A DNA stretch of 64,000 nucleotides, taken from assembly GCF_012027495.1 (NCBI RefSeq), contig NZ_SNUK01000002.1, positions 1 to 64,000 of the forward strand, read 5' to 3'. The translations under genes and the position numbers were made by a program. The stretch is from Thermococcus sp. JdF3. Its GTDB lineage: Archaea; Methanobacteriota_B; Thermococci; Thermococcales; Thermococcaceae. Below, piece by piece: positions 43,256-51,046 of this stretch. Within the stretch, counting starts at the first letter, position 1, and every line of letters begins with the position of its first letter. The notes below the pieces were generated by a model that saw only the letters and a program-made list of their open reading frames with translations, did no database searches and had not been told where the DNA came from.

Positions 43256-43429
43256 ATGAGCGAGATAGTTGTGAAAATCCCGGACGGAGTGGATGAAAGA
43301 CTCGCAAGACTCGTTATAGAAAGAGCCCTCAAAAGGTTGAAGGTGGCCAACGAGACCTTTGGGACACTCAAGCCGAAAGGGAATGTGGATGAACTTATCG
43401 CCGAGGCCGATGAGGCATGGACCGTGTGA
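43256..43429 (+). CDS. vapB: VapB-like antitoxin (57 residues)
   Basis: Small protein IVVKIPDGVDERLARLVIERALKRL..., with a strand plus amphipathic helices as in membrane-independent RHH-like antitoxins, and an acidic tail. GGTGAT lies 12 bases before the ATG; the end overlaps the vapC start by 13 bases. It is short but clearly one half of a TA pair. Confidence 0.78.
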   Translation: MSEIVVKIPDGVDERLARLVIERALKRLKVANETFGTLKPKGNVDELIAEADEAWTV

Positions 43430-43866
43430 TGCTCGACTCAAACGTTGTACTGAAACACCTCTTCGGCGAGTGGAATATCTCCGAGCTTCTCGCCCTTACG
43501 GAGCCGTATTACAACGATATCGTTTATTCCGAAGTTTTGTACCTGATCATCCGAAATGAAAGTGGCGAGAGACCATTTACCCTCAAAAAGAAACCGGAAC
43601 TTGTTGTTAAATCATCACAGGCCATAAAACCCGCTCTCAAGCTGTTTGAAGTTCTCAATTACTCGCCAATAAGCGAGCACACGTTGTGGGAAGCTGAAAA
43701 ACTCATTGAGCGCTACGGTCTCCTTCCCGGGGATGCCATAATATTGGCCAACTGCATTGAAATGGGACTCGATGCGCTTTTGACGTGGGACTCGGACCTC
43801 CTTCGGGTGAACGACGAAATTTCCAAGTGCATGATAACCACACCCGCTGAATACCTTCTCCTTTAG
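43417..43866 (+). CDS. vapC: VapC-type PIN-domain toxin
   Basis: 149 residues: RVMLDSNVVLKHLFG (D7), DIVYSEVLYLIIRNESG, LLPGDAIILANCIEMGLDALLTWDSDL. The same subfamily as the VapC at 46881 (shared YSEVxYxxIR and YGLLPxDAxIL). Partner of the 57-residue antitoxin. Confidence 0.86.
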   Translation: MDRVMLDSNVVLKHLFGEWNISELLALTEPYYNDIVYSEVLYLIIRNESGERPFTLKKKPELVVKSSQAIKPALKLFEVLNYSPISEHTLWEAEKLIERYGLLPGDAIILANCIEMGLDALLTWDSDLLRVNDEISKCMITTPAEYLLL

Positions 43867-46720: not shown

Positions 46721-46903
46721 ATGGAGAACGTTGAAGGAAAAATGGGGATGGATCTCGAATGGCGGGTTAGGATGGATAAGCTCAGGGCCGAGGCGAGGGC
46801 AAACGTGGACGGGGTCTTGAAGAGGGCCTTCGGCTACCTGAAAACCTCCAAGGGCTGGGAAGAGCTGGAGGCTGAGCTCTATGAGGAGCTTTCTGGTGGA
46901 TAG
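46721..46903 (+). CDS. vapB: VapB-like antitoxin (60 residues)
   Basis: Charged helical protein (DKLRAEARANVDGVLKRAFGYLKTSKGWEELEAELYEEL), no clear DNA-binding motif. ATG 46721 follows GGGTGAGGGG; an earlier in-frame ATG at 46709 is less well placed. Overlaps vapC by 23 bases. Confidence 0.72.
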   Translation: MENVEGKMGMDLEWRVRMDKLRAEARANVDGVLKRAFGYLKTSKGWEELEAELYEELSGG

Positions 46904-47336
46904 CAACGTTTTCATCGAGGCACTCAAAGGGGACGGTGAGGCAGAGGACATACTTTCACGCCTCCTGCGCTCGGACTGGAGGGTCTTCATAAACGACGTT
47001 GTCTTCAGCGAGGTCATGTACCACTTCATACGCATAAGGGCTGGTCCATACTGGAGCGCCAAGAAGAACCCTGAAAAAGTCTCCAAGGCCGTCGAGGAGT
47101 TCGAGAGGGTCGTGCTCCCCATGCTCGCGATTCCCGATTTCCTTGAAGTGAACTACGACATCTCTACAATAGCCCTCCGCGTATCAAAGACATACGGCCT
47201 GCTTCCGAACGATGCACTCATACTCGCGACGGCCGAGTACTACGGCGTTGATACCCTCGTATCCCTCGACCGGGACTTTAAGAGCGCCTGTAGGGGAGAG
47301 GGAATTAAGCTGGTGACATCTATTAAAGAACTGTAG
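46881..47336 (+). CDS. vapC: VapC-type PIN-domain toxin
   Basis: 151 residues: SFLVDSNVFIEALKG (D7), DVVFSEVMYHFIRIRAG, YGLLPNDALILATAEYYGVDTLVSLDRDF carry the PIN acidic residues. Same subfamily as the VapC at 43417. Partner of the 60-residue antitoxin. Confidence 0.87.
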   Translation: MRSFLVDSNVFIEALKGDGEAEDILSRLLRSDWRVFINDVVFSEVMYHFIRIRAGPYWSAKKNPEKVSKAVEEFERVVLPMLAIPDFLEVNYDISTIALRVSKTYGLLPNDALILATAEYYGVDTLVSLDRDFKSACRGEGIKLVTSIKEL

Positions 47337-47408: not shown

Positions 47409-48416
47409 TCACTCGATCTTCACACCGCAGACTGGACAGAACTTCGCTCCCTCAGGAACTATGTGGCCGTTGGGACAGCGGTGTATCTGGTGCCCACAGT
47501 AAGGACAGAACCTCGCTCCGGGCGGAATCTGCTTGCCGCAGTAGGGGCAGATTTCCTGCCGTCCCGCAGGTTGAGCTGGTGCCCCCGGCTGGGCCGGCTG
47601 CTGGTATCCTGCCGGCGGAACGCCTCCACCAGCGTAGGGCTGCGCCGGCTGGGCTGGTTGAGCCGGCTGCTGAAGGAGCTGGGGCATCACCACCATTCCC
47701 GTGCCTATCGCGGCCCCCTCGCTCTTCCCAAGCTCCGCCGCGACCTGCTTCGCGGTGTCCATCTGCATGACATACTGGGCGTTTCCTGTCTGCATTATCC
47801 AGAAGAGCCTCTGGCGCCACTCGTCGGTCGTGTTCACCCCTTCAATCTTGACGTCGACCAGTTCAAGGCCGAGCCTGCGGAAGTCCTCCATGAGCTTGAC
47901 CTTGACCTGCGTGCTGACCATGTCGAGGTTCTGGAAGAGGTCGACGATTGAGTAGGCGCTGAGGTGCTTCATCATGCCCTCGTTGAAGTAGGCGCGAATA
48001 AACTTGGTGACGTCAGCAGTGTCGTAGAGGCTCTGGCCACCGACGACCTCGGTGATGAAGAGAACGGGGTCAGCGACCTTGAACCAGTAGACACCGTAGT
48101 ACTTGACTGGGGCAAGCTCCCTCGTCTGCGTTTCTCCTCCGTAGCGCCCCTGGAACTGCTTCATGCTGACGAAAATTACCGTCGCCTTAAACGGGCTGTT
48201 TGAACCGCCGACGAGCCTGTAGAGGAGTGGCAGATTCTGCGTCGTCAGCGTGTGCCTTCCCGGGCCGAGAACGTCGTAGATCTTGCCGTCGCGCATGAAG
48301 ACCGCTACCTCGTACTCGTGGACTATCAGCTGGGCGCCCCACTTGATGACCTCGTTGGGGTAGCGCCAGATTATCTCGTCCTCTCCGGGGTTCACCCACT
48401 CTATGACCTGCACCAT
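47409..48416 (-). CDS. SPFH-domain protein with two C-terminal zinc ribbons (YdjI-like)
   Basis: 335 residues. N-terminal SPFH/band-7-like domain (about 1-215, INTERPRETED from EYEVAVFMRDGKIYDVLGPGRHTL and KVKLMEDFRRLGLELVDVKIEGV), a Gln/Ala/Pro linker, then two zinc ribbons (CPYCGKQIPPGARFCPYCG and CPNGHIVPEGAKFCPVCG). This matches the YdjI/virion-core-protein family that is recruited to membranes by zinc-ribbon membrane partners in Bacillus. ATG 48416 has GGTGAG upstream. Last gene of a four-gene operon. Confidence 0.85.
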   Translation of the reverse strand: MVQVIEWVNPGEDEIIWRYPNEVIKWGAQLIVHEYEVAVFMRDGKIYDVLGPGRHTLTTQNLPLLYRLVGGSNSPFKATVIFVSMKQFQGRYGGETQTRELAPVKYYGVYWFKVADPVLFITEVVGGQSLYDTADVTKFIRAYFNEGMMKHLSAYSIVDLFQNLDMVSTQVKVKLMEDFRRLGLELVDVKIEGVNTTDEWRQRLFWIMQTGNAQYVMQMDTAKQVAAELGKSEGAAIGTGMVVMPQLLQQPAQPAQPAQPYAGGGVPPAGYQQPAQPGAPAQPAGRQEICPYCGKQIPPGARFCPYCGHQIHRCPNGHIVPEGAKFCPVCGVKIE

Positions 48417-48417
48417 C

Positions 48418-48912
48418 TCACTCACCCGCCGCGAAGCTCATCCTCTTGCCAAGGACTTCCTCAAAGTTCACCAGCTCCTCGTCGAGGTTCAGAACGGCCA
48501 TGCCCAGGGCCTGTGGGTTTGCTATCTGGCCGTTCAGGGCCTTAACCTCGTTCAGTATCTCCTCGGCCAGCTCTATCATCCTGGCATCGTATTCCAGGAG
48601 CCTGTTGAGTTCATCCTCCTTGAACTTCACCCTGTCGAAGTAGCCCCTATAACCGGCCTCCGCGTGCCTCACCCTGCTCTCCAGGGCCATGAGCTTCTTT
48701 CTCAGGTTGTCTATGGCCACCAGCTGGGCACAGCTTACCATGGCGCAGCGCTGCATGGCCCGCTCCATCTCTCTCCTGGCCAGGGCAAGGGTATCGGCCA
48801 CCTTTCCACGGACGAGCCTGTCGTCCTCCCTTATGAGCTCCTTCTTCTTGTAACCGTGGAAGCCCGGTATGACGAGTTCGAGCTTCTCAACCAGCGACGT
48901 TTCCTTTCCCAT
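48418..48912 (-). CDS. Helical protein in the SPFH operon
   Basis: 164 residues, almost entirely predicted helix with coiled-coil character (VRHAEAGYRGYFDRVKFKEDELNRLLEYDARMIELAEEIL). No membrane segment. Position is that of PspA-like helical proteins in related operons, but no PspA/Vipp1 motif is recognisable. ATG 48912 follows GAGGTGATT. One base separates its stop from the SPFH start. Confidence 0.6.
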   Translation of the reverse strand: MGKETSLVEKLELVIPGFHGYKKKELIREDDRLVRGKVADTLALARREMERAMQRCAMVSCAQLVAIDNLRKKLMALESRVRHAEAGYRGYFDRVKFKEDELNRLLEYDARMIELAEEILNEVKALNGQIANPQALGMAVLNLDEELVNFEEVLGKRMSFAAGE

Positions 48913-48922
48913 AACAATCACC

Positions 48923-49816
48923 TCACATAGGCTTGAAATACAGGTTGCCCCTGTTGAGCCTCATAACCTCGCTTACCTTCCTCCTCTTCACGGCCCCTTT
49001 CCTGAATATGCCGAAGGCTCCGGCGCCGGCTGAGAGGAGTCCGCCGATGAGGCCCCAGGCACTCCCGTAAATGCCGGCCGCGGCTATGCCGAAGACCAGG
49101 CCCGCTCCGAGAACACCTGCTCCCAGGAGGCTGGCCTTCTTCCTCGCCCCGCTCATGAGCGGGTACTCGGCCTGAACAACCCTCCCGTCGGTGCCATCAA
49201 CGTAGCCGGCAAAGCCCTCCCCGCCGTACTCGTAGTGAACCTCCCAGAGGGGATAGTGAACGAGTCCCTGGTACTTCACCTCTATCTCAAAGTCGCCCAG
49301 GGACTTGTCCTCCTGCGAGGCCTCGCTCAGCAACGCACTCTCCATGAGCTTCCTCGCCATAGCCTCCGCCTCTTCCCTCGACATCCTGGGCTCGTAGTAC
49401 CTGCCCTTCTTGACCACTGCCTCATCGAAGAAGCGCTTGCCCCTGATGGGGAAGGGATAGTCCTTGAGAAGCCCCCGGAACGGCGAGCCGGCTGGTATTC
49501 CCACAAAACGGACTTCCTCGATCGTCCCCCACCGCCTGCTCTTTCCGTGGAGGTAGAAGAAGTAAACCGGCACCCAGTGGAGTTCCTTTTTGGTTATCTT
49601 GGCCCCTGTTATGTCGGCCGGGGCGCCGTACTGCCTTGAGAGGAACTTGAGCAGAACACCCCCGGCGTCTTTCCTCATCGGCGGAAAGAAGAAGTGCTCG
49701 CCGGCCTCTTCCCCGGTCTCCAGGTGGAAGGTGGTTCCGCAGTAGGGGCACGTTACCACGCTCACTGTCTCGGGAACCTTAAACTTGGCCGAGCAGGTTG
49801 GACACTGAACCTCCAT
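48923..49816 (-). CDS. Zinc-ribbon membrane protein (second of pair)
   Basis: 297 residues: N-terminal zinc ribbon CPTCSAKFKVPETVSVVTCPYCG (residues about 5-28), a soluble beta-rich middle with HWVPVYFFYLHGKSRRWG and PLWEVHYEYGGEGFAGYVDG, and two to three helices near residues 230-275 (GAGVLGAGLVFGIAAAGIYG, LIGGLLSAGAGAFGIF). Related in layout to the upstream gene. ATG 49816 with GAGGTGATT. Confidence 0.7.
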   Translation of the reverse strand: MEVQCPTCSAKFKVPETVSVVTCPYCGTTFHLETGEEAGEHFFFPPMRKDAGGVLLKFLSRQYGAPADITGAKITKKELHWVPVYFFYLHGKSRRWGTIEEVRFVGIPAGSPFRGLLKDYPFPIRGKRFFDEAVVKKGRYYEPRMSREEAEAMARKLMESALLSEASQEDKSLGDFEIEVKYQGLVHYPLWEVHYEYGGEGFAGYVDGTDGRVVQAEYPLMSGARKKASLLGAGVLGAGLVFGIAAAGIYGSAWGLIGGLLSAGAGAFGIFRKGAVKRRKVSEVMRLNRGNLYFKPM

Positions 49817-49821
49817 CGGAA

Positions 49822-50835
49822 TCACCTCTTAAGCCCTCCCATGAAGTTCCCCACGAAGCCCGTGCTTCTCTCCGTCCTCTGTCCCTCCAGAACCAGCGAG
49901 CCGAAGTAGCCTCCCGCGCCGGCGCCGATTATCAGTGAGAGCACCGAAACCAGTGCGGAGCCGTTGGCACCGCCGTAGGCAGCTCCGGCGGCACCTATCA
50001 GGACGCCGAGGACTACGCCTGCCATGTACTGGGCGCGTCTCCAGATCGGCATGGGCTCGGTGGCGGCGACGTCCTTTCCGTCCCAGCCAGCGAAGACGGC
50101 GTGGTATATCGAGTTCTCGTGTTTATAGTAGACCGTCCACATCGGGAGGAGAAGCAGGGAGACGTTCCTCGGTTCGTCGGCGGTTATGTCGAAGCGCTCT
50201 ATCCTGTCCGCCTTGGCGGAGTAGCGGTTCCTTATGACGTCTATGGCGTCCTCCCTCATTATCATCTTGGCCCGGGTTTCATCTATCTCGGTGTTGAGTA
50301 TCTCGAGCTTTATTCTGCCCCACCCCTCCTCGTCCAGCTCGAGGAGCTTCTTCCCCTTCGGCCTGTGGCGGGAGTAGTGGACGATGATGTCGTCAACGCC
50401 AAAGCTCTTGACCTGTCTCCTGGCGGGGCCTATGAGGCTGAGGGTTTCATCAACGTAGTCATGGTAGTACCGCTCCACGGTGCGGCAGTGGGTTTCGCCT
50501 TCGGAATCGGTGTGGCATTCTTCCTCGCGCACCATGTACTCGACGTCACCCTCAACGTGAACGTCCCCAACCCAGTAAGGGGCGTAGTGGCCTTCGATGT
50601 CAACTATCTCAATCTGTTCCTTCATCCTCTTCAGGTCGAAGTCCCGATTAACGCGGTCCCAGAAGGCCCTGGCTATGGCGTTTTTATCGATGGTCGGGAC
50701 GATGTAGATGTTCTCTGTCTTCAGGTTGCCACTTATGTGGTTTGGAAAACCGCAGTAGGGGCATATCGTAACGATGGTTTCCGGAGAAACCTCAAGGGGG
50801 GCTCCACAGCGCCCACATCTAAAACCGGCTTCCAT
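49822..50835 (-). CDS. Zinc-ribbon membrane protein (first of pair)
   Basis: 337 residues: N-terminal zinc ribbon CGRCGAPLEVSPETIVTICPYCG, a middle domain with HYAPYWVGDVHVEGDVEY and a Cys/His-containing loop (EEECHTDSEGETHCRTVERYYHDY), MWTVYYKHENSIYHAVFAGWDG, and two or three helices before the C-terminus (YMAGVVLGVLIGAAGAAYGG, LSLIIGAGAGGYFGS). YdjG/YdjH-like in layout. First gene of the operon; minus-strand TATA-like CTTAAATAC near 50865-50875. Confidence 0.7.
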   Translation of the reverse strand: MEAGFRCGRCGAPLEVSPETIVTICPYCGFPNHISGNLKTENIYIVPTIDKNAIARAFWDRVNRDFDLKRMKEQIEIVDIEGHYAPYWVGDVHVEGDVEYMVREEECHTDSEGETHCRTVERYYHDYVDETLSLIGPARRQVKSFGVDDIIVHYSRHRPKGKKLLELDEEGWGRIKLEILNTEIDETRAKMIMREDAIDVIRNRYSAKADRIERFDITADEPRNVSLLLLPMWTVYYKHENSIYHAVFAGWDGKDVAATEPMPIWRRAQYMAGVVLGVLIGAAGAAYGGANGSALVSVLSLIIGAGAGGYFGSLVLEGQRTERSTGFVGNFMGGLKR

Positions 50836-51046
50836 AGGTACCACTCTTATACTTGGGCGTCTTTTTAGTATTTAAGGGTGACGCATTCGAAATTCAGAGT
50901 TTTTCCGTTCCTGTTTGATATAGAATCCCTATGCAAAACTCTCAAAACGGCCCAGGTTTCGAAGTTAGAACCGAAGGTTTAAAACTCAAACGTACCTATT
51001 GAATGTAGTATCCCCGTGCGGGATGTTTGATAACCAGGTGGTTGAC

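Follow-up and report, generated by a model that had tools for sequence, protein, structure and literature searches.

The locus described here raises the question of whether a small helical protein, encoded directly before an SPFH protein of the YdjI type, is an unrecognised relative of PspA or of ESCRT-III proteins, or a partner of another kind. It lies at positions 47409-50835 of a 64,000-nucleotide stretch of Thermococcus sp. JdF3 (contig NZ_SNUK01000002.1, positions 1 to 64,000), which as a whole is called the window below. A preliminary description, made from the sequence alone, had likened its four genes to the pspA-ydjGHI operon of Bacillus and suspected a PspA/ESCRT-like protein in the helical one. 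We find that the helical protein represents a widespread family that has no Pfam model and is a fixed neighbour of Band_7_1 SPFH genes. The operon consists of the following parts:

50836-50920, minus strand: region upstream of ZnR1, with an A+T-rich stretch CTTAAATACTAAAAAG and a ribosome-binding-like site GAGTGGT (by eye); probable location of the putative operon promoter, likewise judged by eye.
49822-50835, minus strand: ZnR1, 337 aa; N-terminal zinc ribbon, mixed domain and C-terminal hydrophobic stretches (from the translation and weak zinc-ribbon matches).
48923-49816, minus strand: ZnR2, 297 aa; N-terminal zinc ribbon, PepSY/YpeB-like alpha-beta repeats and two C-terminal membrane helices (from the translation and an AlphaFold2 model).
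48418-48912, minus strand: helical protein of a LIMLP_15305-like family, 164 aa; predicted four-helix bundle with one conserved pole.
47409-48416, minus strand: YdjI-type SPFH (Band_7_1) protein, 335 aa; C-terminal double zinc ribbon.

The genes are indeed as closely packed as first described (1-10 bases), with gaps of 5 bases between ZnR1 and ZnR2 (49817-49821), 10 between ZnR2 and the helical gene (48913-48922) and a single base between the helical and SPFH genes (48417). Judged by eye, ribosome sites resembling GAGGTGAT and GGGTGAG stand before the inner genes, and the last stop codon of the operon is followed by a T-rich stretch. Rfam and tRNA searches of the window gave no match. Among the matches to the helical protein, the closest named relatives are metagenome-assembled genomes of Thermococcus, in keeping with the genus of the window.

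Conservation past one strain, on which the preliminary description had made its reading depend, is found widely. The helical protein is encoded in 25 of 41 searched genomes (the window's own and 40 relatives), and loci were fetched for 24 of them. Counting the window, 19 of 25 loci carry all four genes in the same order; the remaining 6 keep only the helical and SPFH genes. Because the order recurs so often and the pair persists where the rest is missing, the four-gene operon is not a product of chance.

The pair reaches much further than the operon, into archaea and bacteria alike. When genome contigs were searched with a 14-row alignment of the helical family (A1), at least 59 loci were obtained, from archaea (including Thermococcus, Asgard and TACK archaea, Theionarchaea, Hadarchaeum, Thermoplasmata and Methanocorpusculum) as well as bacteria (including Chloroflexota, Acidobacteriota, Wallbacteria, Coatesbacteria and Eisenbacteria). 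Some of them belong to the same assemblies as the 24 fetched loci, and the two counts are not additive. Among the matches listed, the helical gene stands directly upstream of an SPFH gene on the same strand in 57 of 59 loci. Two are exceptions: L096 (Eisenbacteria) has no SPFH gene within 8 kb, and in L098 (Thorarchaeota) the SPFH gene follows about 3.3 kb downstream. The match in L096 forms the end of a 713-aa frame; we rejected a fusion and take the rest of the frame for a spurious upstream extension. A single query for helical relatives on plasmids gave no match.

Presence of the two genes coincides as well. A 44-row helical profile (A2) matches 57 of the 115 genomes of the window's phylum, and a complete Band_7_1 domain (E-value of at most 1e-16) occurs in the identical 57 and in no other, weak partial matches (E 1e-6 or worse) being set aside. 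All 58 full matches, one genome contributing two pieces, have the helical gene directly upstream. The phylum of genome G061, a bacterial group (G061 holds locus L085, Bacillota), comprises 148 genomes; with weaker matches set aside, the helical gene is present in 36 (E <1e-9), the SPFH gene in 35 (E <1e-25) and both in 33, leaving three genomes with the helical gene only and two with the SPFH gene only. The 30 best SPFH loci of this phylum include 25 with a helical gene within the flank of about 1.5 kb and none with PspA there; in the other five it lies farther upstream, at 1.6-3.8 kb, on the same strand of the same contig. Since the genomes are related, the corresponding Fisher values (3e-34 and 4e-27) overstate the evidence. 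Within the genus Thermococcus the full SPFH domain is present in 20 of 26 genomes, and this patchy presence suggests that the helical and SPFH genes were gained and lost together. In the literature searched by title and abstract, largely without subscription papers, no earlier description of the helical-SPFH pair was encountered.

What is the helical protein? The Pfam scan assigned it to no family. NCBIfam NF047596 ("LIMLP_15305 family protein") matches 44 of 44 rows of A2, with a best E-value of 7.9e-21. The protein of the window matches it with 2.1e-5 and 24.5 bits, below the curated cut-off of 210 bits, and two further scores shown (23.5 and 47.7 bits) are also far under that value; judged by E-values, the protein is nevertheless kin to NF047596. 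The entry is named after a Leptospira gene and states no function. Weak matches to Pfam ANG-1 (0.0083) and NPR1_like_C (0.029) and to DrmD in PADLOC (0.0043) were taken as chance. Members share the motif PG(F/Y)xGYKxKExRRExDKxLR ... HAxxGYxGxFD ... LxxLxExD.

The AlphaFold2 model (pLDDT 84.5, pTM 0.82) is nearly all helix, with helices at residues 7-14, 24-59, 64-82, 99-128 and 133-161 and a poorly predicted loop at 89-94. The helical coiled-coil protein of the preliminary description is thus helical, but it is predicted as a compact four-helix bundle and not as a long coiled coil. Sixteen residues are invariant or nearly so (16, 17, 20, 21, 25, 28, 31, 35, 84, 87, 88, 90, 99, 102, 109 and 157), and all of them fall into one half of the bundle, which comprises 86 of 164 residues; the chance of this is 1.6e-5 on the assumption of an up-down bundle, a topology inferred from helix order and not from coordinates. 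We take this conserved pole of the model for a putative binding surface, and the SPFH protein is the simplest candidate for what it binds.

Could the protein still be a very divergent PspA or ESCRT-III homologue that polymerises on membranes? It is all-helical, its gene stands next to a YdjI-type gene where pspA would be expected, and among 26 Thermococcus genomes, one of which is the window's own, none has a PspA or Snf7 match above the Pfam cut-off. These absences are to be read with care: weak sub-threshold matches to PspA occur in 13 of the genomes and to Snf7 in three, and for Snf7 the test is blunt, as the control Sulfolobus also missed the cut-off. The comparison of sequences speaks against such descent. 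Alignment of the helical family with a 6-sequence PspA alignment in hhalign gave a probability of 1.7%; the Pfam matches listed for the 44 members include neither PspA nor Snf7, the latter having been sought by Pfam scan only, and no PDB chain is similar in sequence. ESCRT-III cores have a much longer helical hairpin than a compact bundle whose main helices measure 36, 19, 30 and 29 residues, and the conserved residues gather in one half of it instead of running along the helices. Searches with the model were less telling. Foldseek returned no match with E up to 0.001 (best 0.055). In VIA the best match was IncA (Z 14.0, root-mean-square deviation 2.6 over 139 residues), a level usual for helical bundles, followed by c-type subunits of V-ATPase, the coiled-coil domain of plant Rx and talin. 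PspA, Vipp1 and ESCRT-III chains were not seen among the best 50 rows of either search, an absence that excludes nothing. We rejected the helical protein as a PspA homologue, the two having no Pfam family in common, and regard a divergent PspA or ESCRT-III relative as very improbable; this part of the preliminary description is not supported. No kinship to PspA was detected in its sequence; the functional analogy survives, with the protein as a candidate SPFH partner in PspA's place.

The SPFH protein itself is what it had been taken for, a YdjI-like protein with two zinc ribbons. Its residues 16-204 match Band_7_1 (PF13421) with 6.6e-33 and 114.6 bits, where the curated cut-off is 24, and its residues 290-331 match DZR, a double zinc ribbon (2.3e-9). 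No stretch exceeded the threshold in a hydropathy scan, and hence no membrane segment was found, an N-terminal anchor included. PF13421 is matched in the B. subtilis control genome too, and Band_7_1 proteins occur in four of 14 control genomes (B. subtilis, L. lactis, S. acidocaldarius and M. acetivorans). NF047596 found no match in any of the 14, so that in these four species the SPFH protein seems to manage without a helical partner. In an SPFH tree, built by a quick method and with long branches, 31 archaeal rows group together on one well-supported side, and five (Thermoplasmata, Methanocorpusculum) are placed among bacteria; this is only a hint that the helical-SPFH pair may be old. A single SPFH match was found in phages, in an unannotated 4.2-kb record.

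Several variants of the SPFH gene deserve mention. Pairs at L047:7919-9473 and L048:187-1386 have an SPFH reading that lacks the double zinc ribbon and ends instead in a motif which we take to be SHOCT-like; in L047 the SPFH frame is split in two and is followed by zinc-ribbon-bearing proteins of 328 and 503 aa. One SPFH gene of the Thermococcus group (G274:C1:160013-160579, minus strand) is otherwise matched over its full length but has two TAG codons in frame, which may reflect a decayed gene, a sequencing fault or recoding.

The two remaining proteins of the operon were described as having an N-terminal zinc ribbon and C-terminal membrane helices, and the data agree. Ribbon cysteines of the CxxC...CxxC type are invariant in the alignments (C7, C10, C25 and C28 in ZnR1; C5, C8, C23 and C26 in ZnR2), and hydropathy places hydrophobic stretches near the C-termini (268-316 and 227-253, respectively). 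ZnR1 and ZnR2 are paralogues (hhalign 99.7%). In Pfam both show only ribbons (for ZnR2, Zn_ribbon_4 with 2.2e-6). The AlphaFold2 model of ZnR2 (pLDDT 86.3, pTM 0.76) contains the ribbon, alpha-beta repeats and C-terminal helices at 222-250 and 254-274. It has no Foldseek match under 0.001, and its best match in VIA (Z 7.9) covers the membrane helices only. PepSY is weakly matched in 8 of 21 ZnR2 relatives (best E 0.015), and VIA aligns the model with YpmB (2gu3; Z 5.4, root-mean-square deviation 2.9 over 61 residues), which is presumably PepSY-like. A TPM domain, as in YdjH, was not among the Pfam families listed for ZnR1, ZnR2 or the 21 relatives of ZnR2 (the best 25 for ZnR2 and the relatives). 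In L064:3-5763, from an archaeal metagenome-assembled genome, three tandem ZnR1-ZnR2 pairs precede the helical-SPFH pair, the first being truncated by the contig end.

How far, then, does the likeness to pspA-ydjGHI extend? In B. subtilis YdjI binds PspA, and YdjG together with YdjH is needed to bring both to the membrane, according to PMC8581546, with which the preliminary description agrees on this point. YdjG combines zinc ribbons, a YpeB-related domain and a membrane segment (PMC11237479). Both operons bring together a Band_7_1 SPFH protein with a C-terminal zinc ribbon, a helical protein, and membrane proteins with an N-terminal zinc ribbon and a part that in Thermococcus resembles YpeB/PepSY only weakly. 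Measured against the description of YdjG, ZnR2 has the ribbon and the hydrophobic helices, and its PepSY resemblance is weak. In contrast to Bacillus, the helical protein of Thermococcus is not detectably PspA, and PspA above the cut-off is missing from the operon and from the 26 Thermococcus genomes; two paralogous ZnR proteins are present and no TPM (YdjH-like) gene is seen; and the gene order differs, the helical gene standing directly before the SPFH gene. The proposed resemblance therefore holds for the layout, for the SPFH family PF13421 and, loosely, for the ZnR proteins; it fails for the descent of the helical protein.

We suggest that the operon encodes an SPFH-based membrane-maintenance complex, in which the SPFH protein would have the helical protein as its dedicated partner subunit and ZnR1 and ZnR2 would serve as anchors at the membrane; we lean towards this reading with modest confidence. 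In its favour are the near-constant adjacency and joint occurrence of the helical and SPFH genes, the lack of PspA and Snf7 above the cut-offs in Thermococcus and of PspA in 24 further archaeal genomes with the helical gene, the gathering of the conserved residues in one half of the predicted bundle, and the ZnR1/ZnR2-like genes that follow SPFH genes on proteobacterial plasmids. The SPFH protein, having no membrane segment found, would oligomerise, and the conserved pole of the helical protein would bind the oligomer. ZnR1 and ZnR2 might then recruit or hold the helical-SPFH pair at the membrane, as YdjG and YdjH do for their partners. The presumed complex would guard, maintain or repair the membrane under stress. 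Both the formation of a helical-SPFH complex and its stress function are proposed by analogy with Bacillus, and likewise the helical protein would stand in for PspA as an analogue rather than a homologue.

Several observations weigh against this proposal. Firstly, PspA exceeds its cut-off in 7 of 35 further diverse genomes with the helical gene (7 of 11 bacterial and 0 of 24 archaeal, many of them metagenome-assembled and of uncertain completeness), and in these seven bacteria the replacement of PspA is not exclusive. Secondly, a YdjH-like TPM gene was not seen. Thirdly, of 46 loci outside Thermococcus only 12 have ZnR1/ZnR2-like genes close to the pair, so that in many cases the anchor must be supplied by other genes or be lacking. 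Finally, the linkage counts come from related genomes and are not phylogenetically independent.

Two other roles can be imagined for the same set of genes. The SPFH ring with its PepSY-like ZnR proteins might regulate a protease or insertase encoded elsewhere, with the helical protein as adaptor or chaperone in membrane-protein quality control. SPFH proteins of other families do pair with proteases, as HflK/C with FtsH and stomatin with NfeD, and the PepSY-like matches of ZnR2 relatives, like the YpmB alignment in VIA, fit a protease-regulating fold. A chaperone-like role has also been proposed for the band-7 and TPM partners of PspA, as stated in PMC11237479. On the other hand, no protease gene was recognised when the 22 largest clusters of neighbouring genes from 46 loci were inspected by eye, without a family search, and we consider an adaptor of proteolysis unlikely, if a serious contender.

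Alternatively, the helical and SPFH proteins might act together at the membrane in a module that has nothing to do with envelope stress and helps, for example, to form vesicles or organise lipids. The resemblance to pspA-ydjGHI would then reflect no more than the shared SPFH family. The pair does stand without zinc-ribbon membrane genes at many loci, both bacterial and archaeal. SPFH/zinc-ribbon proteins are likewise carried by the Meth_adaptin ESCRT loci of Methanobacteriales, where a role in sorting was proposed (PMC10936438); there, however, they stand alongside Vps4 and ESCRT-III genes, whereas Snf7 stays below the cut-off in the 26 Thermococcus genomes. Yet genes for zinc-ribbon membrane proteins turn up repeatedly, not only in Thermococcus but also in several archaea of the TACK group and next to SPFH genes of proteobacteria, and a role apart from envelope stress appears rather improbable to us.

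The proteobacterial genes are found on plasmids. In Vibrio and Paracoccus an SPFH gene, whose product matches the P0004 profile, is followed by a ZnR1/ZnR2-like gene (E 8.8e-9 and 7.8e-13 with the Z1 profile). Unlike the Thermococcus operon, the five plasmid loci scanned have no match to the helical profile, and the combination of an SPFH protein with a zinc-ribbon membrane protein thus recurs with differing neighbours. One Paracoccus plasmid (L200:1689-6407) carries, in this order, a gene annotated for toxic anion resistance (TelA), DUF2927, the SPFH gene and the ZnR1-like gene, which suggests a further partner of Band_7_1 proteins.

More tentatively, and with the odds in our view somewhat against it, the membrane-maintenance reading may be extended. 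The helical family and Band_7_1 SPFH proteins could constitute an ancient two-component membrane machine of archaea and bacteria, the small four-helix protein using its conserved pole to dock onto an SPFH ring. PspA-YdjI and the TelA-annotated operon of Paracoccus would then be variants of one scheme: an SPFH ring, an exchangeable helical partner and a zinc-ribbon membrane anchor. SPFH proteins are widespread and their role at membranes is disputed, and a concrete handle on it would be offered by a dedicated helical partner. Its conservation reaches from archaea such as Thermococcus and the Asgard group into bacteria; it is absent from Pfam and, as a small soluble protein, can be tested in a genetically tractable archaeon. 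If our assumptions are true, a ydjGHI-type module needs no PspA, and the role of the SPFH complex becomes separable from that of PspA.

Apart from its possible function, the helical gene has a peculiarity in Asgard archaea (Jordarchaeia, Freyarchaeota and Sigynarchaeota). Six such genes are interrupted at the identical codon boundary by 28-31 bases:

Inserts in Asgard helical genes: L090:3594-3623; L094:2720-2747; L100:7988-8018; L101:7994-8021; L106:975-1003; L107:1261-1291.

Removal of the insert restores the family sequence PGY^HGYK in 6 of 6 cases. The insert edges fit a bulge-helix-bulge with a 4-bp centre, paired at 4 of 4 positions in all six, at 4-6 of 6 in the inner helix and at 5-6 of 8 in the outer one; of about 2,200 other placements in each case, 0, 2, 0, 0, 0 and 0 scored equally high. 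The close relatives L081 and L099 have no insert. By these features the inserts are probably bulge-helix-bulge introns. A protein-coding intron is known for archaeal cbf5 (PMC2738675), and intron-rich tRNA genes are described for Freyarchaeia, a lineage otherwise called Jordarchaeia, in PMC11291895.

Two further observations concern neighbouring genes. Upstream of the helical gene in L044:7627-10469, L043:1-1952 and L073, the same cassette is present, in which a membrane protein ending in a Cys-Ala repeat and GGGGF is followed by a second protein. We take the cassette proteins to be DUF2207-like and radical-SAM/SPASM-like, the latter label applying to the second of them, and the whole looks like a peptide-modification cassette. 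In the window, two plus-strand frames near the operon, 43417-43866 and 46881-47336, resemble by eye VapC/PIN-domain proteins.

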